A stretch of DNA of 64,000 nucleotides from Rhodobacteraceae bacterium Alg238-R152 (lineage in GTDB: Bacteria; Pseudomonadota; Alphaproteobacteria; Rhodobacterales; Rhodobacteraceae), in the NCBI GenBank assembly GCA_900537125.1, contig UNRJ01000002.1, forward strand, positions 496,001 to 560,000, written 5' to 3'. Under the pieces are notes generated by a model that had not been told where the DNA came from, searched no databases, and saw only the letters and a program-made list of their open reading frames with translations. This document shows, piece after piece, positions 4,323 through 26,633 of the stretch. Both the position numbers and the translations under genes were made by a program. Within the stretch, counting starts at the first letter, position 1. Each line of letters starts with the position of its first letter.

Positions 4323-6029
4323 ATGAACCCAAAAGCGGACACAACTGACATCCCAGTCAAACAAGGGATTGGCGCCGTCTTACGGCAGCGCGCAGAAGTT
4401 GCGCGGTTTCTTTTGGATGCGGGACAGGGCCTGCGAGACCCGATTGTCTTTCTGACGCTGATCTCCGGGGTGAGCCGTGCGGGTATGATCTTTGCCATCA
4501 ATGAGACCGCTCGCAGCCACGCCGATGGGTTGGGCTGGTCGGTCTGGCTGTTGATACTCTGCGCCGCTGGCATGGTGATCTCGGCCTTTTTGCAAAAAGT
4601 GCGGGCTTTCACTCTGATCACGCGGATCGAAGCGCAGATGCGCAATCGGCTGTCTGAGCTATTACTGCGAGCCAACATCGATTTTCTGATCTCCGGGCGG
4701 CACGGCAAAGTCTACGGCGCGATGACCGCCGAAGTGAACCAACTGGCGCAGGCGGTGATCCATTTGGTGGAAGCAATTGGCGCGGCCATCGTGTTGTTGT
4801 TTGCTATTCCATATCTGTTTTTTGTCAGCTGGATTGCTGGTGTGGCCGCCGTGGGGGCGATCGTCTTGGGTGGGATTGGTTTTGCCCTGATGGATGGGCC
4901 TGCGCGGGTATGGGCACTCAAAGCCTCAGACAGTTTTGCCGCCTATTGTGACCGGGTGAGCGATATGCTGAGCGGCTGGAAAGAGCTGCGGCTTCGGGCC
5001 AGTCGGCGGCAGGCTTTGGAGGCGGAAACCCAGGCGGTGATCGCGGTGCAAATGGCGCATAAGATGCGCTCGGAACGGCTGTTTGCTGCCAGCACCGGTG
5101 GTGGACAGATCGCTGTGGCGTTGTTGATGTGTTTTGTGGTGATTGTACTGCCGCAGATGCAGGGCGGCGATGCAATTGTGATGTTTCAGGTGCTGACCAT
5201 CATCTTTTTGGTGAATGGGCCAACCGAGTTGGTATTCAATACTCTGCCGGTTCTGAGCCGCGCGGAGAACAGTTTTTACAAGATCAAAGCGGTAGAGGCC
5301 GAGTTGGGGCAGGCACAAAGCCGAGCACTGACAGAAGTGCCTAAGCTGCTTGATGGGTTCAACGAAATTGCGCTCAAAGCTGTGGAAGCCAGTGTCGGAG
5401 AGTACCGTGATGGGGTGGTGCCTTTCCATTTGGGACCCGTTGATCTGACATTCCACCCCGGAGAAACCGTTTTTATCTGTGGTGGTAATGGGTCTGGCAA
5501 GACCACGCTTCTGTCACTGATCACGGGGATGCGGCATCCGGATATGGGAGAGATTAAGCTGGATGGCGCAGGGCTCACCGATGACCGCACAGCCAGCTAT
5601 CGTGAGTTGTTCAGCGCGGTGTTTGCGCAGTTCCACCTGTTTGACCATGCCTATGGTTTGCCGGAGAGGGAGCTTACAGAATTGGACACGCGGATTGCGC
5701 AGTTGGGCTTGTCGACACGGGTGCAGTTGCTTGGGGACAAATTTTCCAACACAACGTTATCGGCGGGCCAAAGTCGCCGATTGGCTTTGGCCGTGGCGTT
5801 GGCGGAGCAACGGCCAATCATTGTGCTGGATGAGTTTGCAGCGGATCAGGACCCGGCCAATCGGGCGTTTTTCTATGATGTTTTGATGCCTGAATTGTCA
5901 GCATCTGGGCGGCTTGTCTTGGCTGTGACACATGATGATCACCAATTTGGCAAATGTGATCGCTTGATCAAAATGGAGGCGGGGCGCATCGTGTCAGATG
6001 AGCGTATGCGATCGCGTGAAGGGAATTGA
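4323..6029 (+). CDS. cyclic-peptide-export type ABC transporter (fused permease-ATPase)
   Basis: A 568-residue half transporter. Six hydrophobic segments occupy about residues 30-300, followed by an ATP-binding domain with Walker A GGNGSGKTT at about residue 387, a degenerate signature (LSAGQSRRLAL) and Walker B IIVLDEFAADQDP. The layout and the LSAGQ signature match the cyclic peptide/siderophore exporter family (SyrD, PvdE, YojI). Members move peptides, siderophores or microcins across the inner membrane. No peptide or siderophore synthesis gene is adjacent, so the cargo is unknown. The next gene starts 4 nt after its stop, suggesting a two-gene unit. The Shine-Dalgarno sequence is weak. 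Confidence 0.8.
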   Translation: MNPKADTTDIPVKQGIGAVLRQRAEVARFLLDAGQGLRDPIVFLTLISGVSRAGMIFAINETARSHADGLGWSVWLLILCAAGMVISAFLQKVRAFTLITRIEAQMRNRLSELLLRANIDFLISGRHGKVYGAMTAEVNQLAQAVIHLVEAIGAAIVLLFAIPYLFFVSWIAGVAAVGAIVLGGIGFALMDGPARVWALKASDSFAAYCDRVSDMLSGWKELRLRASRRQALEAETQAVIAVQMAHKMRSERLFAASTGGGQIAVALLMCFVVIVLPQMQGGDAIVMFQVLTIIFLVNGPTELVFNTLPVLSRAENSFYKIKAVEAELGQAQSRALTEVPKLLDGFNEIALKAVEASVGEYRDGVVPFHLGPVDLTFHPGETVFICGGNGSGKTTLLSLITGMRHPDMGEIKLDGAGLTDDRTASYRELFSAVFAQFHLFDHAYGLPERELTELDTRIAQLGLSTRVQLLGDKFSNTTLSAGQSRRLALAVALAEQRPIIVLDEFAADQDPANRAFFYDVLMPELSASGRLVLAVTHDDHQFGKCDRLIKMEAGRIVSDERMRSREGN

Positions 6030-6033
6030 GTTC

Positions 6034-6816
6034 ATGAATGTAACGCGAGACATACCGGGCCGTGGCACGGGATTGGCAATGTTGGTGGCGTTGATCACCA
6101 CTAGCTTTGTCACGGTTGTGGTGAATCTGCAGATGTATTCTGCGCGCTGGAAATTTGCGGCGTTTTACCCGGAGAAGGCGTCGGAACGTCCGTCGACCAT
6201 AAGCGAGTCGATTGCTGATCCGCGTATTGGCGAGCCCTTTGCCGATTGGCACTTGCTGTGCGCGCCATTGCTGTTTGTCGGGGTCGCCTGTCTGATCTTG
6301 TCCACATGGCGGGAGGCGCGGGCCAGTGGGATCGCGACGGTCAAGATCACCACTGTGTCTTGGGTCCTGGTGGTGTTGCAGGCCATGGCTTCGGTTGGAT
6401 TGGTGATCCTAAGCCAATACCGTTTCCCGGACTTTCGGGATCAGCATATGGCGGGCAGCTATGTGTTTTTCTTCTCGCAGGCCTTTGTGGTGGTCGCTGG
6501 TGAAGTTTTGTCGCGCGCTTACGCCGGTTTGGGGCCTGAGGGTCAGATTGTGGGCCGTATTTGGGCGCCGCGATTTGCAGGCTGGCGGCGGCGGTTTGTC
6601 TGGGTGCCAATTCTGTTGGGCGTGGCCTACCTGTGTCTGTTTTTGGGCAAGGGGTATGCGCCAGAGACACTTCGGTATGAGGTGTATGCGGCGTACGTGA
6701 GCACAGAGCTGTTTTTGCTCAGCTCGTTCTTGTTTTACATGATGAGCTTTGCACCGGACATGTGGCGGGTGTGGACGCTGAGCCGGATGGATTATTCTTC
6801 GGTTGAGGCGTCCTGA
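6034..6816 (+). CDS. six-helix membrane protein, Frag1/DRAM/Sfk1-like
   Basis: Translated from ATG 6034 rather than the upstream in-frame ATG 5998, which lies inside the exporter gene; a purine-rich GAAGGG precedes 6034. The product is about 260 residues with six hydrophobic segments. After the first helix the loop contains PSTISESIADPRIGEPF, which resembles the P-x-IS…P…F signature of the Frag1/DRAM/Sfk1 family of eukaryotic and bacterial membrane proteins. That assignment is by eye and moderate. The gene follows the ABC exporter by 4 nt and its 3' end overlaps the convergent phosphatidyltransferase gene by 25 nt. Its role is unknown. Confidence 0.6.
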   Translation: MNVTRDIPGRGTGLAMLVALITTSFVTVVVNLQMYSARWKFAAFYPEKASERPSTISESIADPRIGEPFADWHLLCAPLLFVGVACLILSTWREARASGIATVKITTVSWVLVVLQAMASVGLVILSQYRFPDFRDQHMAGSYVFFFSQAFVVVAGEVLSRAYAGLGPEGQIVGRIWAPRFAGWRRRFVWVPILLGVAYLCLFLGKGYAPETLRYEVYAAYVSTELFLLSSFLFYMMSFAPDMWRVWTLSRMDYSSVEAS

Positions 6817-7403
6817 GCGCGCAGCATTTGCGTGGCGCGTCGGGCGCGCTGCAGAGCGGTGACATGCGCGAGGATAGCAAAACCGGTGAGGCCCCATGTG
6901 ATGGCGGTGTCGCCCAAGACGCCTGCGATCAGCAACATGGCGCAGAGGAAGATCACGCGTTCCATCCGCTCAAAGACATCCGGCCAGTCGGTGTTAGAAA
7001 CAGGCATTTCGATGGCGGTGCGGGCTTTGGCGTAAGATGTGATGACGGAGCCAGAGAAACAGGCCAGCGCGAGGGGCCAGGCGTCATGCATATGCGCCAG
7101 CGTCGCGAGCACGGCGAGCTCTTGATAGCGGTCGACCATGGCGTCAAAATAGCCGCCTGCTTTGGTAGACATGTTGCGGCGGCGGGCGACGGCGCCGTCC
7201 AAAGCGTCAAACACAAAGGCCACGATCAGCGTGAGGCCGTAGAGCACAGGCGATTGGTGCCAGAGGTAAGCTAGCGACACCAAGATGATCAAGACGAGGC
7301 CAATGAAGGTCACTTGATTGGGGGTGAGGCGGGCTTTGACCAGCGGGCTGGCCATGGCCTCCCACAGAGGGTCGATGGTGGATTTCATCAGGCCATCAAT
7401 CAT
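6792..7403 (-). CDS. CDP-alcohol phosphatidyltransferase (candidate phosphatidylinositol-phosphate synthase)
   Basis: A 203-residue integral membrane enzyme with the full family signature D-x2-DG-x2-AR-x8-G-x3-D-x3-D at residues 66-91 (D66, D69, G70, A73, R74, G83, D87, D91). Such enzymes displace CMP from a CDP-linked lipid or CDP-alcohol with an alcohol acceptor. It is the last gene of the minus-strand lipid cluster, which also encodes an inositol-phosphate synthase and a CdsA-like enzyme. The most economical reading is therefore transfer of inositol phosphate onto a CDP-activated lipid, as in mycobacterial PgsA1/PIPS or Bacteroides inositol-lipid loci. Substrates such as glycerol-3-phosphate cannot be excluded, but a housekeeping PgsA is normally encoded elsewhere. 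Confidence 0.85.
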   Translation of the reverse strand: MIDGLMKSTIDPLWEAMASPLVKARLTPNQVTFIGLVLIILVSLAYLWHQSPVLYGLTLIVAFVFDALDGAVARRRNMSTKAGGYFDAMVDRYQELAVLATLAHMHDAWPLALACFSGSVITSYAKARTAIEMPVSNTDWPDVFERMERVIFLCAMLLIAGVLGDTAITWGLTGFAILAHVTALQRARRATQMLRAQDASTEE

Positions 7404-7414
7404 CAGGGTGTCCT

Positions 7415-8941
7415 TCAGGTATAGCTGCGGATTGCGAGACGGCGAATTTTTTCCAGGCGCTCAGCTCGCGCAGCCAATTGCGCGGCGCGGTTGGGATCCG
7501 GAGTGTAGCTTGCAGAAGTGCGTGTTTTGAGCGTGGCGGCAGCCTCAACGACGCTGTTGGACCAGCCCATCAGGGGCGCGGCCAGTGTTGCGGTGCCGAG
7601 CATACCGGCGTGGCGAGCAGAACAAACCCGGATGTCGCGGTTGAGCGCGTCAGCCAGAGTTTGGGCAAAAACCGGATCAGAGGCAACCCCCCCAACAATA
7701 GAAACCGGGCCGGTGGTTTGTGCGCCTTTTTCGCGGGAGACTTTGGACATGGCCCAACGCAGATTGAGCACGACGCCTTCGATGGCGGCGCGGCGTAGGG
7801 CATTTTTGTCGTGATGCAGGCTAAGGCCATGAAATGTGCCACGTAGGGCGGAGTTGTCGACAGGCACGCGTTCTCCGGCAAGCCAGGGCAGGAAAAACGG
7901 ATCGTCATCCTGTGGAGTGCCAATGTTGGCAAAACGGGTGTCTTTGGCACCGTTGCCGGTGAGTTGGCAGACCCAATCGAGGGCCGAGCCAGCGTTTTCC
8001 TGACTGGCGATCAGTAGGGGGCGATAGTTCAGGCCCGAAGTGATGGTGGCATAAGAATGCGCCACCGACAGGCGGCGGTTGGGGAAGAAACCTGCGATCC
8101 AGGCGGAGGTGGCAACCGAGATGTGCAACGCGCCATCCGTCACTTCGCCAGAACCAAGGGCAGAGGCCATGACGTCCGATGTGCCGCCGAGCACTTTTAC
8201 GGTGTTGGGCAGTCCCAATTCTGCGGCGGCTTGGGGGGTGAGGCTGCCAACAATGGTGTCAGCTTGCGTGATTGGGGCCAGTTTGGTGCTGTCGATCCCG
8301 GTGAGATTGCACAGCGTGTCTGACCAACCTTCGCGACCCAATCGCGTGTCCATGACCCAGCTCAGGTTGGCGCTTTCGGGGCTTGTTGTCATTTCTCCAG
8401 TGGCGCGGTGCACCAGCCAGTCTTTCACATCCACCATCCAGCGGGTTTTGGCGTAGATTTCTGGCTCTTGCTGCATGACCCAGAGCATTTTGGCCGTGGG
8501 GTCCATGCCGTTTTTGGCCGGTGCGCCATTGGCCAAGCGCAGCCAATTGAGCAAGCGTGGCAAATTATATCCGTGCACTTCCGGGAATCCGCCGGTCAGT
8601 TTTGTGCCCAAGGACGCGGCACGTTTGTCGAGCCACGTCAGACATGGGCGCAGCGGGGCACCTGTGGCATCACAACAGACCACACCGCAGAGTTGTGACG
8701 AAAACACCAGTGCCGCGGCACGTTTTGTCAGGTCTGGCAGCTCACGGCGCAAAGTGGCCAGTGCATGGGCCAGTGCGCCCCACCAATCTTCTGGAGATTG
8801 TTCCGCAATGCCACCGGTTTGCAGGACCAGCGGATAGCTTTCTGTGACACGGGCCAAAACGGTGAGATTGCTGTCGACAACGCCCACTTTCACGCCAGAG
8901 GTGCCAAAGTCGGCTGATATGACCAAATCGCCCTGTGTCAC
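7415..8941 (-). CDS. FGGY-family carbohydrate kinase
   Basis: The preferred start is the GTG at 8941, which has GAGG eight bases upstream; a GTG three codons earlier (8950) is the alternative. The product is about 508 residues, normal for FGGY kinases. It has the N-terminal phosphate-binding DFGTSGVKVG, a central LTWLDKRAASLG region like that of xylulokinases, and the C-terminal ATP motif GGVASDPVFAQTLADAL. The family phosphorylates sugars and polyols (xylulose, glycerol, ribitol, gluconate). No sugar-uptake or pentose genes are nearby. It sits inside a lipid operon, between a glycosyltransferase and a CDP-alcohol transferase, so it could phosphorylate a polyol head group. The substrate is not determined. 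Confidence 0.85.
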   Translation of the reverse strand: MTQGDLVISADFGTSGVKVGVVDSNLTVLARVTESYPLVLQTGGIAEQSPEDWWGALAHALATLRRELPDLTKRAAALVFSSQLCGVVCCDATGAPLRPCLTWLDKRAASLGTKLTGGFPEVHGYNLPRLLNWLRLANGAPAKNGMDPTAKMLWVMQQEPEIYAKTRWMVDVKDWLVHRATGEMTTSPESANLSWVMDTRLGREGWSDTLCNLTGIDSTKLAPITQADTIVGSLTPQAAAELGLPNTVKVLGGTSDVMASALGSGEVTDGALHISVATSAWIAGFFPNRRLSVAHSYATITSGLNYRPLLIASQENAGSALDWVCQLTGNGAKDTRFANIGTPQDDDPFFLPWLAGERVPVDNSALRGTFHGLSLHHDKNALRRAAIEGVVLNLRWAMSKVSREKGAQTTGPVSIVGGVASDPVFAQTLADALNRDIRVCSARHAGMLGTATLAAPLMGWSNSVVEAAATLKTRTSASYTPDPNRAAQLAARAERLEKIRRLAIRSYT

Positions 8942-9050
8942 GCAGCTCACCTCAAAAAACAGTCGTCATTAAATAGCGCCTTTCAAAAGGCAAAAAGTCC
9001 TATGTCCGATCTGACATGTGGATCAGGAGTTTGGCAAGGGTGGTAAAGCC

Positions 9051-10169
9051 TTAGATCGGTGCAGCAAGTGCTTGTGCATATAAATTCACGTAGTCCGGCC
9101 CGATGGTGGCCACATCAAAACTGTTGGCGTGGGACTTGGCCCAGGAGGTCAGTTGAGCGCGCCTGTTCGGGGATTGGGAAAGGGTGATGAGTTTCCGCGC
9201 CAATGCTGTGGCATCGCCGGGAGGAACCAAAAGTTCAGAACCCTGACCGGTCATCACTGTTGCATAGCCTTCGTTGGCGGCGGCCACCGGCAGAGTGCCT
9301 GCCGCCATCGCCTCGATTAGGACAAGGCCGAAGCTTTCCCCATGTAATGCGGGGGCGGCAAAAATATCGGCGGAGGCTATTAAGGCGCGGGCGTCGATGG
9401 CGTTGGGTGGGGCACAAAAAGTTACGGTTTTGAGACCTGAGGCTTGTGCACGCAACGCAGTTTCTTCGGCGCCATGCCCGGCAATGATCAGCTCGGTTTT
9501 TGGCGCGGAAGCTTCAACAGCTTGCCACGCATCCAGCAAGACAGATACACCTTTGCGTGCCTCCAAGCGGCCCATGTAGACCACACGAAATGTCTCCGAG
9601 GGCAGCGCTTGTTCCCCCGCAGCACGCCATGCGGAGAGGTTGATAGTTGGCGGTAATATGGCCGGGACTGGATTGGCACCAGCGGCCTCCCATTGGCGAT
9701 AAGGGGCCATCGAGGGGACCACAACACGGCTGATGCGGCGATTGAAGTAATGGCCCACCCGGCGCAGTGCAGCGGACATAGGGTCAAATCCTGCGCCCTC
9801 AGGCAGGGTGGCGTGGAAGGTGGCAATGCTTGGCAGATTGAGTGTGCGCCACATTTGCCAGGGCAAGAGAGGTGTCCAAGGGGTGTGCATGTGGATGACT
9901 TCAGCCCCCCAATCGCGCAGCTCTGACACGGCGGCTTTGATCTCTCCGCGAGTGGCACGGCTGACCTCGAAACTGGTGCCATGGATCGACCAGGGACGGG
10001 CATTGCCGACGGTCATGAGCCCTTCCTCGCAATAATCTGGATCACCGGGGGGGGCCACAATGCGCACCTCATGGCCTTGGCTGCGGCACCAGGCGGCAAG
10101 GTCGCGGATGTTGCTTTGCACCCCACCAGGGCGGTCCATGGCGTAGGGGGTCAGTTGCACAATTTTCAT
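9051..10169 (-). CDS. GT4-family glycosyltransferase of the lipid cluster
   Basis: A 372-residue GT-B enzyme. The N-terminal half has the acceptor-side glycine loop (DRPGGVQSNIRDLA) and the C-terminal half has the retaining GT4 E-x7-E region in GESFGLVLIEAMAAGTLP. It resembles the PimA/PimB-type and other lipid-linked GT4 enzymes in general architecture, but the donor and acceptor cannot be read off. The start codon overlaps the stop of the upstream LptG-like gene (ATGA), so it is translationally coupled into the operon. About 110 nt separate it from the next gene, with a short GCCTTT/AAAGGC hairpin between. A role in adding a sugar to the inositol or ceramide head group is inference from context. 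Confidence 0.88.
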   Translation of the reverse strand: MKIVQLTPYAMDRPGGVQSNIRDLAAWCRSQGHEVRIVAPPGDPDYCEEGLMTVGNARPWSIHGTSFEVSRATRGEIKAAVSELRDWGAEVIHMHTPWTPLLPWQMWRTLNLPSIATFHATLPEGAGFDPMSAALRRVGHYFNRRISRVVVPSMAPYRQWEAAGANPVPAILPPTINLSAWRAAGEQALPSETFRVVYMGRLEARKGVSVLLDAWQAVEASAPKTELIIAGHGAEETALRAQASGLKTVTFCAPPNAIDARALIASADIFAAPALHGESFGLVLIEAMAAGTLPVAAANEGYATVMTGQGSELLVPPGDATALARKLITLSQSPNRRAQLTSWAKSHANSFDVATIGPDYVNLYAQALAAPI

Positions 10170-11317
10170 GCGACGCTCCTTGCGGGGCGGCGGAGGCTGG
10201 GCAGGTAGCCCGCTTGATAAAGTTGCAGAAGCGTGGCGAGGCCAAGGGCAAAGAGTGCGGGTGCCGTGGCAGCCATCATGGGGGGCAAGACATCGCGAAT
10301 GCCAAGTGCCCAGAAGATTTTTACGGCCACCACAGCAAGGTAGCCCACGGTTGCGAGTGCCAATAGTCTGAACGGCGACAGACGGCGGCCTTGGGTGCCG
10401 AGGCTGGCGAGACTCACGCCCAGAAAGGCAAAAATGCCGGGCAGGAAGATCGCCACCTTGCGCACAGCCAAAGCTGTGGCGGCGTCGGGTGTTGTGGGCA
10501 AAGCGGGCGTTGCCTCAGCGGTGACAATCGCACGTGCAGCCGCATTGGTGAGGTAATAGCCATCGATGCCAAACCAGCGCAGCTTGTCGACGGTTAGATT
10601 CAGCGGCATATCCACATGTGCTTCAAAGGTTGGGGGCCTGTTTTGTGCAACGTCCCAAGTGGTTACGTTGGTCAGGGTCCAAACCCCGTCGCGGAAACTT
10701 GGCACTGCGGTTTCTGCGTGCAGAATATGGGTTAGGTTCCGCTGATTGATGCCTTCAAACAGCATCAGGTCGCTCAGGGATGGGTTTTTTCCGCGAACAG
10801 CCGTTGCTCGGAGGGCGCGGGTGTCGGTCAGCATCCATTGCGTGCCCACGTCTGTGTTGTGGTAGCGGTTGCCGTAGTCGCCCAGATTGGCCGCGACCTG
10901 TGCTTGCACGGCGGCGGGGCGCAGCCAGTTTTCACCAACCAGCTGCACAAGGCCCAGAAGCAGCCCAGAGACCAGCAAGGCGATCAGGCGCAGGCTTGGG
11001 CTGGCCCCAGCGGCGGCGAGCACAACATCGTCCATGCGTTGATGGCGCAGTAATGTCACGACGAAGCCACCGGCGACACAGGCCATGGTCAGCAGGCGGG
11101 TAACGATGTCTGTGGACCGGTAGCCGATATAGGGAAACAGAACCTCCCACAGGTTTTTATCGGTGTCTGTGGCCTGTACACGCACGCTGTCGAGCCATTT
11201 GGCGAGGTCGATGCTGAGGGCCACCACCAGCAGGACAAACAGCATGAATCCAATGACCGCCAAATCACCACGCACCATGGCGCGCACCGCCAAACCTGTG
11301 TGCCGCCGCCAGCTCAT
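10166..11317 (-). CDS. LptF/LptG (YjgP/YjgQ)-like permease, second of pair
   Basis: Translated from the ATG at 11317 (MSWRRHTGL), which overlaps the stop of the upstream permease gene as ATGA; the longer open frame to 11440 lies inside that gene. The product is about 383 residues with two N-terminal and about three C-terminal membrane helices around a large periplasmic domain (roughly 115-290). This is the layout of LptF/LptG, the permeases that lift lipopolysaccharide out of the inner membrane. Sequence conservation looks low for a housekeeping LptG, and no lptD/surA-type neighbours are present. It is therefore more likely a paralogue dedicated to the lipid made by this operon. An ATPase (LptB) is not encoded here. 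Confidence 0.7.
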   Translation of the reverse strand: MSWRRHTGLAVRAMVRGDLAVIGFMLFVLLVVALSIDLAKWLDSVRVQATDTDKNLWEVLFPYIGYRSTDIVTRLLTMACVAGGFVVTLLRHQRMDDVVLAAAGASPSLRLIALLVSGLLLGLVQLVGENWLRPAAVQAQVAANLGDYGNRYHNTDVGTQWMLTDTRALRATAVRGKNPSLSDLMLFEGINQRNLTHILHAETAVPSFRDGVWTLTNVTTWDVAQNRPPTFEAHVDMPLNLTVDKLRWFGIDGYYLTNAAARAIVTAEATPALPTTPDAATALAVRKVAIFLPGIFAFLGVSLASLGTQGRRLSPFRLLALATVGYLAVVAVKIFWALGIRDVLPPMMAATAPALFALGLATLLQLYQAGYLPSLRRPARSVA

Positions 11318-12465
11318 GTGCGGTCTCGGTGCGGTGTCATCAACGTTTCGCCGCGCCACAGCAGGTAGCTGAGCGGTGGTCCAAGGTAGACCAGCACAGC
11401 CAGGAGAATGAGCACAGCGGCTGGCACCGTTGCGGACCATTCTGCGAGCACAGCGCGGCTGGCCACGTCACTTGCCATCATCAGCAAAGCGGCCATTGGC
11501 AGAGCCGCGTATCGCCACGGGCCTGTGCCGCCGATCAACAGCGCCACAAGGGCGAGCAGGCCTGCCATAGGCACCATCAGCGCACGTGTGGTCAGGCGAG
11601 TCAGACGGGCTGGCTCATCCCCATTGAGATTGAGGAGATGTTCGGCTGCGCTGCGGGTTTGATCTGGTGCTGGCAGGGCGTCGGCCATCGCAAAAGCAAA
11701 ATTTGCTTGCGCGGTGTTGAACCGGTTGAGCGGTGGGGTTTGCTTGGAGGGATAAGGCGCTTCGAGTACGGCGAGGGACTGAAGCGTGATTGTGTGTGTG
11801 TCGGCGGGGGCCGGGTTGGTGACGTGCCAATCTTGGGATTGGGCCACGCGCCAATTGCCGTAGAGGTTGGGCTGAAACACAAACAGCTGGCCGTGGATGT
11901 GGGTAGAGGTGTCTTTCGCAGGCGTGGCGATGAAGGTGGTGTCGCGGATGGTTTGTACTGCCGTATCTGTGGTGCCGTTTTCAATGCGGGAGAGCACATG
12001 GTTTTTTTGCAACTCTGCCAGGGCGAGGCGTTCGCCGTATTTGGACATTGGTAACAGCAGACCAGCATTGAGGAAGCTGAGCATCCCACCGATCAGGCCA
12101 AGCACCAAGACAAAGGCAATCACGCGCCCCCAGTGGATGCCTGCAGTAGCGAGGATCATCAACTCGCCGCGATTGCGGGCATCTTGTGTGGCAAAATAGG
12201 TGGCAATGAGCAGACCTATGGCGAGGGCGAGATCGAAGATTTCGGGGGTTTTGAAGGTCAGGAGGTGCAGGACGTCGCCTGCTCCGCCGCCAAACCGAAG
12301 GGCGTGTTCCATCAGGGTGGTGAAGCTTTCGGCGAGGAAAATTGCTTCGATCACCAGCAACAGCAACAAAAGACGCAGGATCAGCGGTTTGCCCAAAACG
12401 CGTACAATCGGCAGCCGGGGCATCGGCAGCGCAAATGTGCGTGTGTGTGGGCGGTGTTGGCTCAT
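11314..12465 (-). CDS. LptF/LptG (YjgP/YjgQ)-like permease, first of pair
   Basis: A 383-residue membrane protein with helices near residues 28-50, 75-95, 105-130 and three at the C-terminus, enclosing a periplasmic domain. The cytoplasmic segment after helix 2, NRGELMILATAGIHWGRV, matches the family's conserved GELxALxAxGxS coupling helix that contacts the ATPase LptB. This is the strongest evidence for the assignment. The pair 11314-12465 and 10166-11317 has the LptF-LptG arrangement. The gene lies 40 nt after the CdsA-like gene. A dedicated export role for a sphingolipid or glycolipid is inferred from the operon. Confidence 0.75.
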   Translation of the reverse strand: MSQHRPHTRTFALPMPRLPIVRVLGKPLILRLLLLLLVIEAIFLAESFTTLMEHALRFGGGAGDVLHLLTFKTPEIFDLALAIGLLIATYFATQDARNRGELMILATAGIHWGRVIAFVLVLGLIGGMLSFLNAGLLLPMSKYGERLALAELQKNHVLSRIENGTTDTAVQTIRDTTFIATPAKDTSTHIHGQLFVFQPNLYGNWRVAQSQDWHVTNPAPADTHTITLQSLAVLEAPYPSKQTPPLNRFNTAQANFAFAMADALPAPDQTRSAAEHLLNLNGDEPARLTRLTTRALMVPMAGLLALVALLIGGTGPWRYAALPMAALLMMASDVASRAVLAEWSATVPAAVLILLAVLVYLGPPLSYLLWRGETLMTPHRDRT

Positions 12466-12505: not shown

Positions 12506-13393
12506 TCACCACAATTGCGTGACAGTGTGCAGGGCGGTGACGCCGGCGCCGGCGGCGATCCAGCTATCGAGACTGTCCAATAGGCCGCCTTGGCGGGGCA
12601 GAACTTGCGGGTAGTCTTTCACGCCCGCGATACGTTTGTGGCGGGAGGCGGCGAGGTCGCCGGCAATGGCGAGGGCCCCTACAAGAAGCGCGGTAAGCGC
12701 GGTGGGCAGGAGCGGCATGTCGAAAGCGGCGGCGGTGATCAGTGAAAGGGTCAATAGGGCCAAGCCGCCGCCGAGAAGGCCTTCGACGGTTTTGTTTGGG
12801 CTGAGGCTGGGGAAGGCTTTTGTGCGGCCCCACATGGCGCCGAAGAACAGGGCAAAGCTGTCGAAGATTTCCACCATCAGGTAGGCGGCGAGCAAGAGCG
12901 CGGCGAGGGTCGGGTCGACGGTGCCAGAGGCCAGCAGGCAGGCGGGCAGGATTGGGTATACCATAAGGTCAGTATCGATTTGTCCCGGGGTTCTGTCGCG
13001 TTCCTCTCGTAACAGATGGAGCGCGAACAGAAATGCCCAAAACAGAATCAGCATTTGTTTTTCTATCGGGACAAACATTGCCATAAGTGCCAAAAAACCA
13101 GATGAAGTTATTGCGAATAGGATCCTTGGTTTCGATGGGAAGCGCACAGCTTCCATCTCAAATGCAATGCGTGCAACCATTATAGGCATAGCCAGATAAA
13201 GGGCATATGGACCGAGCCAAAACAGCGCCGTCAACACCGCAATCAAGGCGACAGCGGTGCCAAGCGTTTTGCCAAACTCCATCGCGTCTTTCCGGTAGGC
13301 GGGGATCAGCGCCAGCACGGCAATGATGCCAAAACCAAAGGTATAGATGGCGACAATGGCGGTGGTGACTTGCGGCAAGGTCAGGGTGGTCAT
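12506..13393 (-). CDS. CdsA-like phosphatidate cytidylyltransferase
   Basis: A 295-residue polytopic enzyme. The C-terminal third carries the CDP-diglyceride synthase signature: SLSPNKTVEGLLGG, then GDLAASRHKRIAGVKD followed by LPRQGGLLDSLDS. Family members make CDP-diacylglycerol from CTP and phosphatidic acid. As part of a lipid operon that also encodes inositol-phosphate synthase and a CDP-alcohol transferase, it probably provides the activated CDP-lipid for head-group transfer. A second, housekeeping cdsA is expected elsewhere in the genome (normally near dxr/rseP/bamA). Its start overlaps the SDR gene stop by 4 nt. Confidence 0.88.
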   Translation of the reverse strand: MTTLTLPQVTTAIVAIYTFGFGIIAVLALIPAYRKDAMEFGKTLGTAVALIAVLTALFWLGPYALYLAMPIMVARIAFEMEAVRFPSKPRILFAITSSGFLALMAMFVPIEKQMLILFWAFLFALHLLREERDRTPGQIDTDLMVYPILPACLLASGTVDPTLAALLLAAYLMVEIFDSFALFFGAMWGRTKAFPSLSPNKTVEGLLGGGLALLTLSLITAAAFDMPLLPTALTALLVGALAIAGDLAASRHKRIAGVKDYPQVLPRQGGLLDSLDSWIAAGAGVTALHTVTQLW

Positions 13394-14187
13394 TTGGCCT
13401 CGTGCTTGCGGATGATCCGCCGTTGGTGCCAGCGCAGGATCGGCGAAATCAGGCTGCTGAGCCCATTCAAGAGCAGCATTTGTGGGCCCGGCGTGATCAC
13501 AGGTTTGCCGGCCTCCATGCCCTTAATGAGACGTCCGGCCACATCAACGGGTTGCCATAGGCCACCACCTTCGGTGATTTCCTGTGTTGCGGCGGGTTTG
13601 GTGCGTTTTTCGGCTTCCAGCTGCGGTGTGTCGGTGTCCGGGGGGTAGATCAGCGTCACACTGATGTTGGTGTTTTCCAGTTCCAGATGCAGGATCTCAG
13701 CCAATCCGCGCAGAGCAAATTTTGAGGGCGCATAGGCCCCGTAGCCGTAGATACCAAAGAAGGCTGCACCGGAGGCAATCAGGCCAAAGCGGCCCCCACC
13801 CGCCGCCGCCATTGGACCGCGCAGCACGTCGATAAAGGTCAGCGTACCAAAGTAGTTCACCGCCATATGGCGCTGGTGTTGTTCAAACGGTTGATCCCGA
13901 AACAATCCCGGCTCGGCAATGCCCGCACTGGCGATGGCCATATCCGGCGGGCCAAGTTTGCGGATTGCGGCTTTAAGCGCCTCGACAAAGCTGTCGCGGT
14001 TGGCGACGTCGACGGCAAAGACTTCCACGTCTATATCTGGTGCTGCTTCCAGCAGAGCGTCGCGGGTTGCCAGCAGTTTAGAGGCATCGCGGGCAAACAG
14101 CGCAAGGTCATGGCCTTTGATGGCCAATTCCCAGGCGGCGGCAAAGCCAATGCCACTGGACCCGCCGGTTATGAAGGCGGTCGGCAT
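13390..14187 (-). CDS. KDSR/TSC10-type short-chain dehydrogenase (candidate 3-ketosphinganine reductase)
   Basis: A 265-residue SDR with the NAD(P) motif TGGSSGIG at residues 7-14 and catalytic N111, S139, Y152 and K156. Beyond the generic fold it has the segment YPPDTDTPQLEAE at 181-193 followed by KRTKP. I know this as the hallmark of eukaryotic 3-ketodihydrosphingosine reductase (KDSR/FVT1, yeast Tsc10). The AYAPSKFALRGLAE segment is also typical. A hydrophobic C-terminal stretch (about 235-250) and a basic tail suggest membrane association. It would reduce the 3-keto group formed by the serine-palmitoyltransferase-like enzyme encoded in the same operon. Its ATG overlaps the MIPS stop by one base (TGATG). 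Confidence 0.82.
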   Translation of the reverse strand: MPTAFITGGSSGIGFAAAWELAIKGHDLALFARDASKLLATRDALLEAAPDIDVEVFAVDVANRDSFVEALKAAIRKLGPPDMAIASAGIAEPGLFRDQPFEQHQRHMAVNYFGTLTFIDVLRGPMAAAGGGRFGLIASGAAFFGIYGYGAYAPSKFALRGLAEILHLELENTNISVTLIYPPDTDTPQLEAEKRTKPAATQEITEGGGLWQPVDVAGRLIKGMEAGKPVITPGPQMLLLNGLSSLISPILRWHQRRIIRKHEAK

Positions 14188-15299
14188 CAGGCGTCATCGT
14201 TGACAAAGCGCAGCACAACTTCATGCGCGTCTGTGTCTTCGATTTGTTCTGGAGGGTGCTTGAAAAGGAAGGCAGAGGCCTCCGGAATAGGACCTGCCAA
14301 CCCACGGTCCCGCGCAATGCGGGCCAAGCGAATGGCGACCAGCGCTTCGGCGGCGGCGTTGGGGCTGTCCTCTACGTCAAGACGCACTTCGATGTTGGTG
14401 CGTGCCCCGCCAAACAGGCGGCCTTCGAGGCGCACGTAGGCCACCTTGCGGTCCTTGAGCCATGGCACATAGTCTGACGGACCGATGCGGATATCAGTGT
14501 CACTTAACCGCTGCTCCATGGCGGATTGCACGGCCTCAGTTTTGCTTTCACGCTTGTTTGCAAGACGGGCATTTTCGCTCATATTGAGGAAGTCCGTGTT
14601 GCCGCCCACATTGAGCTGATAGGTGCGGTCAATCTCCACGCCGCGCATTTCGGCCAAGTTGGCCAAAGTGCGGTGCAAGATGGTGGCGCCCATTTGAGCT
14701 TTGAAGTCATCGCCAAGAATTGGAACACCTGCTGCGCGGAATTTCTCTGCCCATACCGGATGCGAGGCGATGAACACCGGGATGCCGTTGACCACCGCCA
14801 CACCTGCCTTAAGCGCACATTCGACGTAGAACTCCACCGCCTGTTGCGAGCCAACTGGCAGAAAGATGATCATCACCTCAGCGTTAAGCTCATTTAATTT
14901 GGCGACAACTTGGTCTTTGGTCAGAGCGGCTTCGTCAGAAAGGCGGAAGCTGCGGTCTGCTGGGTTGGCCAGCATATGCGCGGCCACACCGTCCAGATCG
15001 GGGCCACGTAACACGGGAGCAGTTTGGTCCGCCAATTCCGTGTGGAATTGCTCGGTACAGTTGGGCGCGGCAAAGGCCGCTTCGCCCAATGTCTTGCCAA
15101 CCTTTCGGCTGTCGACGTCAAACCCCGCAACCAGCTCCACATTGCCAGGCGTGAACCCTGCCAAGTCGGGGAAACTGACGCCCACAGCCTGGTCGCCAAG
15201 CGCGCGGCAGTAAGACACCCCTTGAATGAGGGAGCTTGCGCAATTGCCTACACCAACAATGACGGTACGGATTGGGGTGGGAATTGGAGAGTCAGTCAT
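14187..15299 (-). CDS. ino1: myo-inositol-1-phosphate synthase (inositol-3-phosphate synthase)
   Basis: A 370-residue NAD-dependent isomerase with the N-terminal dinucleotide fold VIVGVGNCASSLIQGV. Internal blocks typical of the compact actinobacterial/archaeal MIPS type are present, such as LPVGSQQAVEFYVECALKAG, GDDFKAQMGATILHR and LNVGGNTDFLNM. It converts glucose-6-phosphate to inositol phosphate, the head-group precursor of inositol lipids. Its presence in an operon with sphingoid-base and CDP-lipid enzymes is the main reason to call the product an inositol sphingolipid. The gene overlaps its upstream neighbour by 4 nt and the downstream SDR by 1 nt. Assignment is strong. Confidence 0.9.
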   Translation of the reverse strand: MTDSPIPTPIRTVIVGVGNCASSLIQGVSYCRALGDQAVGVSFPDLAGFTPGNVELVAGFDVDSRKVGKTLGEAAFAAPNCTEQFHTELADQTAPVLRGPDLDGVAAHMLANPADRSFRLSDEAALTKDQVVAKLNELNAEVMIIFLPVGSQQAVEFYVECALKAGVAVVNGIPVFIASHPVWAEKFRAAGVPILGDDFKAQMGATILHRTLANLAEMRGVEIDRTYQLNVGGNTDFLNMSENARLANKRESKTEAVQSAMEQRLSDTDIRIGPSDYVPWLKDRKVAYVRLEGRLFGGARTNIEVRLDVEDSPNAAAEALVAIRLARIARDRGLAGPIPEASAFLFKHPPEQIEDTDAHEVVLRFVNDDA

Positions 15300-15952
15300 T
15301 CGGTATAAGCTCCGCCGGAAACGGCAATGGTGTGGGTGACATACAGCCCCGTTTTGGGGTCATTGGTATAGAGGCGCAGGCGCGTGACTTTGGGGAAGAG
15401 GCCGGATTCGTCCACGTCCAGATAGGCGTAGATCAAGCGGTACTCGCGATTGTTGAACTGCGCAAAAAGCGCGGCCGAAAAAGGCCCGGTCTGACGCAAT
15501 ACCAGGGCCTCAGATTTTAGCCCGTTGAAAGAAAACTGCAGTGTGTTTGACGTGTCGGTCTGGCGAATGCGCGTGCCAAAGCCAAAGACACGTTCATACC
15601 ACCGCAGCGACATGACCTGACCCTTGTCCTGAAAACGGCGCCAATAGACCGCGACCGGGGTGTCACTTTGCAAATTGCCATCGGCGTCAAAACGGGCGGT
15701 GTAGACCACCGTGTTGGCATTGATAGTGCGCTGCAAAAAAAACAGTTGATGCGCATCGGTTGGGTGGCGGAACTCTGGGTTCACATGTGGAAGGTGGGGT
15801 GTTTCGCTGCGAGACAATACCGAGAGAGAGGGCCGAGCCATCACAGACACGGACGTCAGGCCAAGGCATGCAAAGGCCAAAATGGCACTTAGCCAGACTC
15901 CCGATATGGCCCGGCAAACGCGCGGTAAAATCGGGTTTGCGTTCCCAGTCAT
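15296..15952 (-). CDS. secreted DUF4833-like protein
   Basis: I chose the ATG at 15952, 4 nt after the upstream stop; an in-frame GTG at 15967 would overlap it. The product is about 218 residues with a basic N-terminus and a hydrophobic segment ending around VSVMA, so a signal peptide is likely. The mature part is mostly beta-like, with spaced motifs FFLQRTINANTVVYTARFD, PVAVYWRRF and LRLYTNDPKTGLYV. This resembles DUF4833 proteins as I remember them, a family of unknown function; the match is not certain. It is embedded between the two committed enzymes of the lipid pathway, so a periplasmic role in handling the lipid is plausible but unproven. Confidence 0.6.
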   Translation of the reverse strand: MTGNANPILPRVCRAISGVWLSAILAFACLGLTSVSVMARPSLSVLSRSETPHLPHVNPEFRHPTDAHQLFFLQRTINANTVVYTARFDADGNLQSDTPVAVYWRRFQDKGQVMSLRWYERVFGFGTRIRQTDTSNTLQFSFNGLKSEALVLRQTGPFSAALFAQFNNREYRLIYAYLDVDESGLFPKVTRLRLYTNDPKTGLYVTHTIAVSGGAYTE

Positions 15953-15956
15953 ACTG

Positions 15957-17183
15957 TTATTCCGCACTCAACCGTTGCCGCGCAGCGGTGGCCTGTTCGT
16001 GGGCCTCTGACACAGCATTGATCACCCGGTCGATGTCAGCGTCGGTGTGGGAAGCTGAAATGAAAAAGCGGATGCGCGGCATGTCCTTGGGAACGCCTAC
16101 GTGCACAACGGGTGGGGCATAGATGCCTTGATCCATCAGGGCTTGAGCCACAAAGACACAATCATCAGGTGTTTCAAATAAGATGGGCACAACAGCTTCG
16201 CCAATGGCTGTGCCGGTGTTGAGGTTTGCTTCGGCGGCTTTCGCCATAAACCGTTGAGAGTTGGCGCGAAGTTTGGCAACGCGTTCCGGCTCATTGCGCA
16301 ATATGCGCAGCGCGGCGTGGGCGCTGGCAGTTGTTGCTGGCGGCAGGCCAACTGAATACACAAATCCTGGCAGGCAAAACCGCATCCATTCGATCACGTC
16401 GGAGTTTGCCGCAACAAAACCACCGGATGACGCAAAGCTTTTGGATAGGGTGCCAATGGCGATTTCCACGCGTTTTGGGTCTTCGCCGAAATGCTCACAC
16501 AGCCCACGGCCGGTTTCTCCCAAAACGCCGTAAGAATGCGCCTCATCTAGCAACAGCCAGGCGTCGTACGCATCTTTGATATCCAAAAGGCGCGGCAAGT
16601 CGGTGATGTCGCCATCCATGGAGAAAAGGCCATCTGTGCAAATCAGAATGCGGCCATGGTCGGCGCGATGTTTGTGCAGAAGGCGCTCCAGATCGTCGAG
16701 ATCATTATGGGCATAAGTCTCCATGCGTGCACGGACGCCTCGGGCCCCAACCACAATTGAATTGTGTGACAACTCGTCCACAAGCACCAAATCACGCGGC
16801 CCCAGCAGCAGACCGATCACCGACACATTTGTGAGATAGCCGGAAATGATCGACAGCACGCCACCCACACCCAGAAAATCGGCCATGTCCTCTTCGAGTG
16901 CGCGGTGCGCCAATCGCTCTCCGCCAACAAGTCGGGAGGCCCCCACGCCTGTACCTTGGGCATCAATCGCCGCTTTGGATGCCCCCACCGTGTCAGGATG
17001 ATGCATCAATCCCAAGTAATCGTAGTGTGACATCGAGAGGTAGCCTTGTGGCCATTGCGCTGACTGCGCCTCAAGCGCATCAGTTGGCACAAAGTAGGGG
17101 TGGCCGTTTTCGATCAACGCGCGCCCACTTAAACGAAAGCGGCGTTCAGCAAAGGCCAGGAAGCTGGAATTTGGTGTTGTCAT
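15957..17183 (-). CDS. serine palmitoyltransferase-like alpha-oxoamine synthase
   Basis: A 408-residue PLP enzyme of the AOS family, which condenses an amino acid with an acyl thioester with loss of CO2. H140 in DELSHNSIVVG is the PLP-stacking histidine, D213 and H216 lie in LLDEAHSYGVLG, and the PLP lysine is K248 in GTLSKSFASSGGF. Other family members are KBL, BioF, HemA and cysteate (capnine) acyltransferases. The operon context, with a KDSR-type reductase, favours serine palmitoyltransferase or a close analogue. No acyl-carrier protein or ceramide N-acyltransferase gene is adjacent. It is the first gene of the minus-strand cluster, transcribed away from the ABC uptake operon. Confidence 0.85.
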   Translation of the reverse strand: MTTPNSSFLAFAERRFRLSGRALIENGHPYFVPTDALEAQSAQWPQGYLSMSHYDYLGLMHHPDTVGASKAAIDAQGTGVGASRLVGGERLAHRALEEDMADFLGVGGVLSIISGYLTNVSVIGLLLGPRDLVLVDELSHNSIVVGARGVRARMETYAHNDLDDLERLLHKHRADHGRILICTDGLFSMDGDITDLPRLLDIKDAYDAWLLLDEAHSYGVLGETGRGLCEHFGEDPKRVEIAIGTLSKSFASSGGFVAANSDVIEWMRFCLPGFVYSVGLPPATTASAHAALRILRNEPERVAKLRANSQRFMAKAAEANLNTGTAIGEAVVPILFETPDDCVFVAQALMDQGIYAPPVVHVGVPKDMPRIRFFISASHTDADIDRVINAVSEAHEQATAARQRLSAE

Positions 17184-24028: not shown

Positions 24029-24053
24029 GGGCACGCGCTTGCCACACGTGCCC
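24029..24053 (-). terminator. probable terminator after the large MscS gene
   Basis: The inverted repeat GGGCACG / CGTGCCC (7 bp, 11-nt loop) lies 34 nt beyond the stop of the minus-strand channel gene. It is followed on that strand by the T-rich TGTTTCTTTTATGG. The stem is short, so the call is moderate. Confidence 0.5.
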
Positions 24054-24086
24054 CATGGTCAGTTTTGGGTGATCAGAAAAGCGTGC

Positions 24087-26438
24087 TTACCGATCATCCC
24101 CACCTTCGGGACCGCCTTCCATGGCGTCCTCATCAATGGCCGCTTCCACGGCGCCGACAACGGCTTCACGTTGTTTGGGTGTCAGGTCTTCGGCATTGGC
24201 ATCATCAGCAATGCGCACGGTGACTTCGCGGTGGGCAAATTTGATGCCTTCGCGCTCAAACAACTCTCGGATGTCCTGATAGACTCGCTTGCGAACCAGC
24301 CATTGGTCACCGGGTTTGGTCATGAATTTCACCCGGATGATCATGGCGCTGTCTTGCATTTCGATCACGCCCTGAGATTTCAGAGGTTGGATAAAGTTGT
24401 GGCCGATCACCGGGTCGTCGAGAAGTTCAATACCCAGATTTTTGACCAATTTTCGAACCCGCTCCACATCCGTGTCGTAGGTGACGCGCAGCTTGAGCTT
24501 CATAATCACCCAGTCGCGGGAATAGTTGGTGAGGTGCTGAATCTCGCCAAATGGAATGGTGTGCAAAGGTCCAAGGTGGTGGCGCAGCTGGAACGAGCGC
24601 ACGGAGATTTTCTCAACGGTGCCTTTAACGGCCCCAATGTCGATGTATTCGCCTTTACGGAAGGCATCATCAAACAGAAAGAACGCGCCCGAGAAGATGT
24701 CCCGCACCAAGGATTGCGCACCAAAACCAACGGCCAAACCAACCACACCAGCCCCAGCAAACAGCGGGCTGACGTTCACGCCCATTTCGAGCAGCACAAT
24801 CAGCACGATGGTGACCACAATCACCAGCAGGATGGTGTTGCGGAACAGCGGCAAGAGTGTTGCCAACCGCGAGGCGCTGGCACCGCCGCCTTCATCGCCA
24901 AGTTCGGCCTCTTCGGAGGGTTCACCTTGTTCTTCGCGGATGCGGCGATCGATCCAGATGCGGAAGGAATGGAAGCCGATGTATCCGATGAACAGGATGA
25001 CAATCATGTCCAGCACGCGCCCGCCGAGCATGTCTTCGTCGATGATGCCGTCGGCGTCAAAGATGTAGAGCGCCGCATAAAGCCCGGCAACAAGCGCCAA
25101 TACCCCGGAAATCCGGCGTGCCAGTTCCTCAAAGGTGTGCATTTGGCGATGGTCGATCAGGTTCTCGAGCTTGAAAAGCTCCTCTTCCTGCTGCTCGGTA
25201 AGATGGCCCTCCTCAACGGCTTCTTCGCGCAGCGCATCAGCGGCGTCATTCACCTCTTTGACCGTGCGGTTGCGTTCAAAGTAGCGCTCGATGCCGTAGT
25301 TAATGGTGGCGTAGACCACAATCACAGCGGTGAGAATGGCGTAGGCCCCGGCGATCAATGGGATGCCAGTGTCGTTGCCCAGGATCAGATCCCAGGACAT
25401 GCTGGCCCAGCCGTAGAGCACATACAAAATGAAGATTGGCGCCCAGAAGGTGCTCGCCCAGCGGGTGGCCAGTGGCACGCGGTTGGTTTCTCGACCGTTG
25501 CGCAGGGCAGACGAAATGGCACCGTAGTTGGCAAAGACCAACGCAATGTTGCCCAACGCAAACAGGGTGGACAGCAACAGCGTCATAACTGCGGAGACGT
25601 CATAGACCAGGCCAAGCTCGCTGAGCCATTCGCCAAAGATCATGGTTACCACATCAACAATGCCAAGCCCCATAACCCACAGGTGCAGTTTCTTTGCGTC
25701 TGGGGTCGAGAAAGGTGGGATACGATATTGCGGCAGATACGGTGACAGGATCATCCGCCAAATCAATGCAATCAGACGGGACAAAGCGTAGGCTGCAAAA
25801 ATCGAGGCATTGGTAAACCGCACAGCAGTGTCGTCAGAGGTGCCAAAAATCAGCAGGCCAAGCAGGGCGGCAAATGTCATGCCGACAAACACGCCGATGA
25901 CGCCGGCAATAAAGCGTACCACAAGGAAAGGCAGCTTCTGCGTGTAACCCTCAGGGGTTTCCTTCACCAGTGGGATGACAAAGCGTGCGGCCAATCGACG
26001 GCCGTAAATATGCCGTTCAAAAAGTACACCAAATGCCAGCAAAGCCAGGGTGATGAGCAGTTGTTTTGCAAAGAACAGGATGCTGCCGTCCGGGCTTGAG
26101 GCGCGCAGGATGAACAACACCTCGTTGATAGCAACGGGCAGGTGCTGAATGCGGTCTTGCAACACTTTGTTGAAGCCTTCCAGCTCCCACTGCAGGCGCA
26201 TTACCGAGGTCATGGTGGTTTTTTCGTTGATCTCTTCGACGACTTCACCTGTGTCATCCGACGTCACGGGGCTGCCATTGCCGTCCAGAATGATGACGGT
26301 CATGCCGTTCTCATTGGCCTGCTGCACAAGCTGCGACATGGTGTTTGATGCGTCGGTCTCAGCGACCTCTTGCGCGTGGGCGCTGGCCAAAGGCAAAAAG
26401 AGACAGGCCGAGAGAACGGCAAGCAGTAGTCGGATCAT
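24087..26438 (-). CDS. large MscS-family mechanosensitive channel
   Basis: The start taken is the ATG at 26438, which begins a clear signal peptide (MIRLLLAVLSACLFLPLASA…) and has AGGAAAG about ten bases upstream; the open frame continues to 26549 without such support. The product is about 783 residues. An N-terminal periplasmic domain is followed by many membrane segments. The MscS core has the pore helix (AGVVGLAVGFGAQSLVRDIFSG) and the beta domain. The C-terminus is acidic. This layout matches the multi-helix MscK/YbdG-like branch. It releases solutes on hypo-osmotic shock. A long plus-strand ORF opposite it is a shadow. Confidence 0.9.
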   Translation of the reverse strand: MIRLLLAVLSACLFLPLASAHAQEVAETDASNTMSQLVQQANENGMTVIILDGNGSPVTSDDTGEVVEEINEKTTMTSVMRLQWELEGFNKVLQDRIQHLPVAINEVLFILRASSPDGSILFFAKQLLITLALLAFGVLFERHIYGRRLAARFVIPLVKETPEGYTQKLPFLVVRFIAGVIGVFVGMTFAALLGLLIFGTSDDTAVRFTNASIFAAYALSRLIALIWRMILSPYLPQYRIPPFSTPDAKKLHLWVMGLGIVDVVTMIFGEWLSELGLVYDVSAVMTLLLSTLFALGNIALVFANYGAISSALRNGRETNRVPLATRWASTFWAPIFILYVLYGWASMSWDLILGNDTGIPLIAGAYAILTAVIVVYATINYGIERYFERNRTVKEVNDAADALREEAVEEGHLTEQQEEELFKLENLIDHRQMHTFEELARRISGVLALVAGLYAALYIFDADGIIDEDMLGGRVLDMIVILFIGYIGFHSFRIWIDRRIREEQGEPSEEAELGDEGGGASASRLATLLPLFRNTILLVIVVTIVLIVLLEMGVNVSPLFAGAGVVGLAVGFGAQSLVRDIFSGAFFLFDDAFRKGEYIDIGAVKGTVEKISVRSFQLRHHLGPLHTIPFGEIQHLTNYSRDWVIMKLKLRVTYDTDVERVRKLVKNLGIELLDDPVIGHNFIQPLKSQGVIEMQDSAMIIRVKFMTKPGDQWLVRKRVYQDIRELFEREGIKFAHREVTVRIADDANAEDLTPKQREAVVGAVEAAIDEDAMEGGPEGGDDR

Positions 26439-26633
26439 GAGGTGGTCTTTCCTGTAGTCGTTTCTTGGTCTTACAGGAACTGAGCTGCGCCGCAAAACAG
26501 TTAAGCGGTGGGAGTTGCGATTTACGCCCGTTTCGCGCCTGTCCTGCATCGCTTTGGGGGTGACATTCTCAGGGAAACCGGATAGCGCGAGTTGCTAGGG
26601 AATGATGCGCATTTTCACAAAGGCACGAGAGAC

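Follow-up and report, generated by a model that had tools for sequence, protein, structure and literature searches.

As of 2024, bacterial sphingolipids were said to reach the outer membrane from the inner one by an unknown route (PMC11324152). The same study described second copies of LptC, LptF and LptG in the phosphosphingolipid region of Caulobacter crescentus (CC_1168, CC_1156 and CC_1155, respectively) and, from gene position and cofitness, put forward as a proposal only that they carry phosphosphingolipids (PMC11324152). In Bacteroides thetaiotaomicron, an inositol-sphingolipid cluster, BT_1522-1526, has been described (PMC9246714, PMC8791184). Here, we report a divergent LptF/LptG pair, termed LptF2 and LptG2, embedded in a lipid-synthesis operon of Rhodobacteraceae bacterium Alg238-R152. 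The operon lies in a stretch of 64,000 nucleotides (contig UNRJ01000002.1, positions 496,001 to 560,000 of the forward strand), hereafter the window. LptF2 and LptG2 are likely the transmembrane (TM) subunits of a second Lpt-type ATP-binding cassette (ABC) extractor that is dedicated to the operon's lipid and borrows LptB. While the general idea of a second Lpt pair for sphingolipids has already been published for Caulobacter, the pair described here forms a lineage of its own and is linked to an inositol pathway.

As in Caulobacter, a second LptF/LptG pair, proposed to carry a sphingolipid, is found near a serine palmitoyltransferase (SPT) gene. Unlike the present pair, the alphaproteobacterial pairs of similar layout occupy other branches of our tree (from which CC_1155 and CC_1156 themselves are absent), and the SPT of such loci is only ~31% identical. 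The head-group genes of Caulobacter are for phosphoglycerate rather than inositol, and an LptC2 is present there, whereas none was found here with a weak LptC profile. The cluster of B. thetaiotaomicron likewise combines an inositol-phosphate synthase with a CDP-alcohol transferase of the phosphatidylinositol-phosphate (PIP) synthase type. However, it comprises five genes without LptF or LptG, and it includes an AUR1-like inositol phosphorylceramide (IPC) synthase, a PgpA-like phosphatase and a GtrA protein, none of which is among the ten genes of the present operon. With the lipopolysaccharide (LPS) exporter LptB2FGC (b4261/b4262 in Escherichia coli), the pair shares the fold, the gene order, the arrangement of TM1-3, beta domain and TM4-6, and the coupling-helix motif of LptF2. 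It differs in being only 13-17% identical, in scoring far below the equivalog cut-offs, in lying inside a lipid operon, in the Asp that replaces the coupling-helix Glu of LptG2, and in a basic LPS-contact pair of LptG that is mostly lost.

A preliminary description of the sequence had placed two LptF/LptG-like genes between a CdsA-like gene and a glycosyltransferase gene, and this arrangement was confirmed: both minus-strand genes exceed the Pfam cut-off of 27.9 bits for LptF_LptG (PF03739; Table 1) and are real members of the family. Their pairing is not due to chance, as the same gene order and neighbors recur in ~50 other genomes and all significant matches of the LptF2 model are LptF or LptG chains. 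Among NCBIfam models, LptF2 is nearest to LptF and LptG2 to LptG, with neither reaching the cut-off of the corresponding LPS-export equivalog (67.8 of the 230 bits needed for TIGR04407; 66.1 of 240 for TIGR04408). Identity to the housekeeping copies of the same genome and to those of E. coli is about 13-17%. The LptG2 start first assigned, at 11440, proved too early, an artefact of the long open reading frame (ORF): relatives begin at Met42 of that ORF, i.e., the ATG at 11317, so that the gene overlaps the stop of LptF2 by the usual four bases, ATGA. The true start of LptF2 may be Met15 (~12423), since the model is of low confidence over residues 1-18 and the alignment of most relatives begins only at residues 14-19. 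In the record of Shimia marina CECT 7688, two overlapping ORFs make up LptF2 (L102:4958-6098), reflecting a frameshift or a sequencing error.

The pair is additional to the ordinary one. A genome-wide search recovered a housekeeping lptFG pair at C1:509595-511774 with 202 and 217 bits versus 74 and 59 bits for the operon pair; thus, the latter is an extra pair, and the objection that it might be the only lptFG of the genome falls away. A single LptB exceeds the family cut-off in the genome (363.6 bits; the next ABC ATPase reaches 170 bits), and its gene adjoins those of LptC and LptA. No second LptB over the cut-off was found in the genome, and none of the cluster genes encodes a stand-alone LptB-like ATPase. 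On these grounds, of the two possibilities raised previously, sharing of LptB fits and its replacement does not. The CdsA-like enzyme of the operon is also a second copy, a separate CdsA being located at C8:87204. CdsA, LptF and LptG, each encoded elsewhere in the genome, thus have paralogues in the operon, as expected of a parallel lipid line.

Comparative genomics links the pair to the lipid genes. With the DUF4833 gene of the operon used as a marker of the cluster, 391 genomes of the order were searched, and LptF/LptG genes were counted in a sample of 382. The marker was present in 14 genomes. Each of these contains exactly four PF03739 genes: two score strongly, at 195-229 bits, and the two inside the cluster weakly, at 36-106 bits. 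Four such genes occurred in 3 of the 368 genomes without the marker. These three (G109, G227 and G335, of the same family) lack both DUF4833 and a close relative of the PIP-synthase-like (PIPS-like) enzyme and possibly carry other second pairs.

Synteny was compared across the DUF4833 loci and 66 loci fetched with the PIPS-like protein. The pair was seen in Shimia, Thiosulfatihalobacter, Pseudooceanicola, Oceanicola, Maritimibacter, Stappia, a Mesorhizobium metagenome-assembled genome and others. LptF2 and LptG2 lie within 10 kb in 50 of the 54 loci that have the genes for PIPS, GT4 and the FGGY kinase. Of the four exceptions, three have an intact but inverted block SPT-DUF4833-MIPS-KDSR-CdsA-LptF2-LptG2 (MIPS, myo-inositol-phosphate synthase) elsewhere on the contig, at a distance of ~20-24 kb; the remaining one, L106, is a short and distant contig. 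One locus (L030) has the seven-gene block without GT4, FGGY and PIPS beside it, and in two others (L097 and L098) LptG2-LptF2-CdsA-SDR-MIPS stay together on the opposite strand, inverted beside the rest. Because the block remains whole when the cluster is split or inverted and GT4, FGGY and PIPS can be left behind, the permease pair is part of the sphingoid/inositol/CdsA block, to which the glycosyltransferase and the PIPS-like enzyme are less firmly tied. The PIPS-like gene is kept in cluster relatives. Where a PIPS gene stands alone, as in the Mesorhizobium genomes L089 and L091, there are only two LptF/LptG genes. Among plasmid-borne relatives, LptG2 was without any match. Plasmid MIPS matches in Sphingobium and Paracoccus yeei were examined as possible cluster relatives and rejected, as they sit in unrelated exopolysaccharide-like neighborhoods.

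Phylogenetic analysis of 97 LptF/LptG proteins, without CC_1155 and CC_1156, used 359 alignment columns (FastTree, LG+gamma) and recovered the cluster LptF2 and the cluster LptG2 each as monophyletic with support of 1.0, the former on the F side and the latter on the G side; thus, they duplicated or diverged as a pair. Neither clade includes the alphaproteobacterial housekeeping copies or other second pairs. Several of these other pairs lie no more than ~6 kb from an SPT-like gene (L154, L159, L161, L163), and the gene layout of L154 agrees with that published for Caulobacter. In this tree, which lacks the Caulobacter proteins themselves, the cluster pair was not recovered as orthologous to the SPT-linked second pairs of other alphaproteobacteria. 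The deep order of the three groups (cluster, housekeeping and other second pairs) is without resolution, and long branches could mislead.

With regard to fold, the AlphaFold model of LptF2 (35 sequences; predicted local distance difference test score, pLDDT, 88.3) comprises TM1-3, a beta domain at residues 169-259, TM4-6 and a short helix at residues 101-107 in the cytoplasmic loop. A Foldseek search of the PDB with this model placed chain 6mit_F first (E 2e-10), in keeping with an Lpt fold that has a periplasmic beta domain as modeled. For LptG2, a six-TM topology with the beta domain between TM3 and TM4 was derived from hydropathy only.

The LptB-contact-like helix noted in the preliminary description held for one subunit and partly for the other. 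Genetics in E. coli has defined the coupling-helix consensus E-phi-x-phi-phi-xxx-G. LptF2 fits it (GELMILATAG); LptG2 has Asp in place of Glu and keeps the Gly (DDVVLAAAG). Across the cluster, the Glu of LptF2 is found in 50 of 50 members and the Gly is nearly invariant, and the corresponding LptG2 residue is Glu in 39, Asp in 9 (the window and eight close Shimia relatives) and Arg in 3 (the rearranged relatives L097-L099) of 51 members. These alignments partly support retention of most of the LptB interface by the cluster pair. Separately, a clade-specific Arg occupies the position of E. coli LptF Y80 in all 22 cluster LptF2 proteins sampled.

Lipid-contact residues give a further hint. In LptG of the E. 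coli type, K40 and K41 contact the 4'-phosphate of lipid A and the core. Basic residues at both positions are kept in Rhodobacterales housekeeping LptG (7/7 each) and mostly lost in cluster LptG2, where the K40 position is occupied by Asp in 31, Pro in 9 and Glu in 6 of 51 members. Allowing for some doubt in the alignment, this pattern leans toward a cargo other than LPS. The full set of E. coli LPS-contact residues was also considered as a cargo test and set aside as mostly uninformative, because alphaproteobacterial housekeeping copies lack them too (K34, for instance, is Asp there); only K40/K41 splits the groups.

The operon itself is larger than previously implied. Ten genes run from 17183 to 6792 on the minus strand with gaps, in order from the SPT-like gene, of -11, -4, -1, -4, 40, -4, -4, 100 and 11 bases; so closely packed on one strand, they read as a single operon (Table 1). 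Judging from its enzymes, the product is most likely a lipid with an inositol-phosphate head group and a sphingoid backbone, and it may be glycosylated. The best solved structures for the SPT-like protein are the Sphingobacterium SPTs 3a2b/8guh (230.7 bits); it reaches 280 of 640 bits with NF047600 and passes no alpha-oxoamine-synthase equivalog cut-off. The short-chain dehydrogenase/reductase (SDR) scores 83.4 bits against the yeast-type TSC10, the next structure reaching 66.0. The presence of both MIPS and the PIPS-like enzyme (NF040950, 127 of the 180 bits needed; below equivalog cut-offs) points to an inositol-phosphate head group, and the GT4 protein weakly resembles MshA, a D-inositol-3-phosphate glycosyltransferase.

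Table 1. Genes of the operon and its flank, with positions in the window.
Feature	Position	Strand	Evidence
SPT-like alpha-oxoamine synthase, first operon gene	15957..17183	-	PF00155; best solved structures Sphingobacterium SPTs
DUF4833 protein, N-terminal signal/TM helix and all-beta domain	15296..15967	-	PF16117 79.7 bits
myo-Inositol-(1/3)-phosphate synthase (MIPS)	14187..15299	-	PF01658 120.6 bits; TIGR03450 373 bits
SDR resembling 3-ketodihydrosphingosine reductase (KDSR-like)	13390..14187	-	best solved structure TSC10 8jat
CdsA-like CTP transferase (CTP_transf_1)	12506..13393	-	PF01148 124.3 bits
LptF2, divergent LptF-type permease	11314..12465	-	PF03739 51.5 bits
LptG2, divergent LptG-type permease (corrected start)	10166..11317	-	PF03739 74.0 bits
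GT4-family glycosyltransferase	9051..10169	-	PF00534/PF13439; MshA-like weakly, 59 bits
FGGY carbohydrate kinase	7415..8950	-	PF00370/PF02782
CDP-alcohol phosphatidyltransferase, (archaetidyl/phosphatidyl)inositol-phosphate-synthase-like (PIPS-like)	6792..7403	-	PF01066; NF040950
Frag1/DRAM-like membrane protein, outside operon	5998..6816	+	PF10277 22.6 bits, below cut-off; synteny
ABC exporter, fusion of TM and nucleotide-binding domains, outside operon	4323..6029	+	TIGR01194 303.5 bits; synteny

On this basis, the pathway can be pictured as follows. The SPT and the KDSR-like SDR would make a sphingoid base and the inositol-phosphate synthase the head group; the CdsA-like and PIPS-like enzymes would activate the lipid and attach inositol phosphate, and the GT4 enzyme would decorate it. 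LptF2 and LptG2 would then join the only LptB of the cell and pull the lipid from the outer leaflet of the inner membrane. From there, the periplasmic beta domains of the two permeases might guide it to a bridge, either shared (LptC/A/D) or specialized (perhaps involving DUF4833). The proposal of a dedicated extractor, already made in the preliminary description, is thus sustained in part: the pair is extra, is inseparable from lipid genes in many genomes, and has retained its fold together with most of the LptB interface; its transport activity, assembly with LptB, cargo, direction and destination we infer.

Several observations weigh against this proposal. The exact lipid is not settled, because neither a ceramide synthase nor a PIP phosphatase (PgpA-like) was recognized among the ten operon products, to which the search was limited; an AUR1-like IPC synthase was not recognized among them either. 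The window LptG2 carries Asp where the E88D change renders E. coli LptG defective, and three rearranged relatives carry Arg; the LptB contact may therefore be tuned differently, or the LptG2 half may contribute less. No second LptC was detected in the genome with PF06835, a profile weak enough to overlook a divergent one; it likewise finds only one LptC in genomes with second pairs near SPT and may miss LptC2. The loss of basic residues is only weak evidence of another cargo, since housekeeping alphaproteobacterial LptG lacks several other contacts as well. Some of these points could be accommodated by LptF2 and LptG2 working in the inner membrane only, as a flippase-like device or by scaffolding the synthetic enzymes, whether or not a different ATPase takes part. 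The absence of a dedicated LptB, LptC, LptA or LptD from the cluster, the Asp and Arg substitutions in LptG2, and the strong divergence from the housekeeping copies (13-15% identity) would suit such a role. It is nevertheless quite improbable given the invariant LptB-contact Glu of LptF2, the nearly invariant coupling-helix Gly, the modeled periplasmic beta domain used for hand-over, and the separate ABC exporter already at hand as a flippase.

A role of the pair as a redundant or specialized LPS extractor (e.g., for modified LPS), unrelated to the operon's lipid, would agree with the known cargo of the family and with the common fold. This role is highly improbable in view of the strict linkage to lipid genes, the fact that relatives with the housekeeping pair but without the cluster almost always lack the extra pair, the lost K40/K41 basic residues, and the complete housekeeping pair in the same genome. 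Alternatively, the pair may be an Lpt-type extractor of a different product, an inositol glycerolipid or a glyco-inositol lipid resembling glycosylphosphatidylinositols or phosphatidylinositol mannosides, with the SPT and SDR serving something else. PIP-synthase-like and CdsA-like enzymes do normally act on CDP-diacylglycerol, and both the weak MshA likeness of the GT4 protein and the cytidylyltransferase-like, second CDP-alcohol transferase and Stealth genes of relatives would suit such an elaborate head group. We consider this product unlikely, however, because the SPT and KDSR-like genes lie in the same overlapping operon and travel with LptF2 and LptG2 when the cluster splits. A tentative and rather doubtful extension of the main proposal is that LptF2 and LptG2 constitute a third, phylogenetically separate LptF/LptG lineage, which evolved with an inositol-sphingolipid pathway in Rhodobacterales and Hyphomicrobiales, borrows LptB and has its own bridge in which DUF4833 replaces LptC/LptA.

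The presence of a second pair within a lipid operon suggests that an inositol-containing, probably sphingoid-based lipid has its own exit route from the inner membrane. The seven-gene block, uniting lipid enzymes with an Lpt-type pair, provides a clean genetic system for asking whether Lpt machines move non-LPS lipids and whether LptB can be the single ATPase behind two permease pairs, each specific for its own cargo. The divergent permeases also offer a natural series for mapping Lpt cargo specificity.

DUF4833 is rare in the order and tied to this operon. The protein is predicted to be exported and all-beta (AlphaFold pLDDT 86.8) and, from these predictions, is presumably periplasmic. It was considered as a hidden LptC or LptA, but this found no support, as the confident model gave no significant PDB fold match and no detectable LptA/LptC jellyroll. 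In the literature, no paper was found that links DUF4833 to inositol, and, judged by title, none of the papers that mention both sphingolipids and Shimia, the nearest named genomes to the window, concerned such a pathway. Scans for promoters and terminators returned counts at chance level only.

In many relatives (L031:11455-15018; L055, L061, L068-L087), an inositol-phosphate-cytidylyltransferase-like gene and a Stealth-type phosphotransferase gene lie on the opposite strand around GT4. This insert, between LptG2 and FGGY, also holds a second CDP-alcohol transferase and forms a modular head-group cassette that the window does not have; the best NCBIfam match of its nucleotidyltransferase is L-myo-inositol-1-phosphate cytidylyltransferase. 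The extra genes thus point to an elaborate head group in those relatives. The ABC exporter and the Frag1/DRAM-like protein (4323-6816, plus strand) adjoin the operon in most Rhodobacterales relatives and could provide a flippase step; the exporter exceeds the cut-off of TIGR01194, a cyclic-peptide-exporter subfamily, and scores 92 bits with the MsbA model. Elsewhere in the window, a 568-residue open frame at 24039-25745 (plus strand) runs antisense to a large membrane-protein gene at 24087-26549 (minus strand) and looks spurious.

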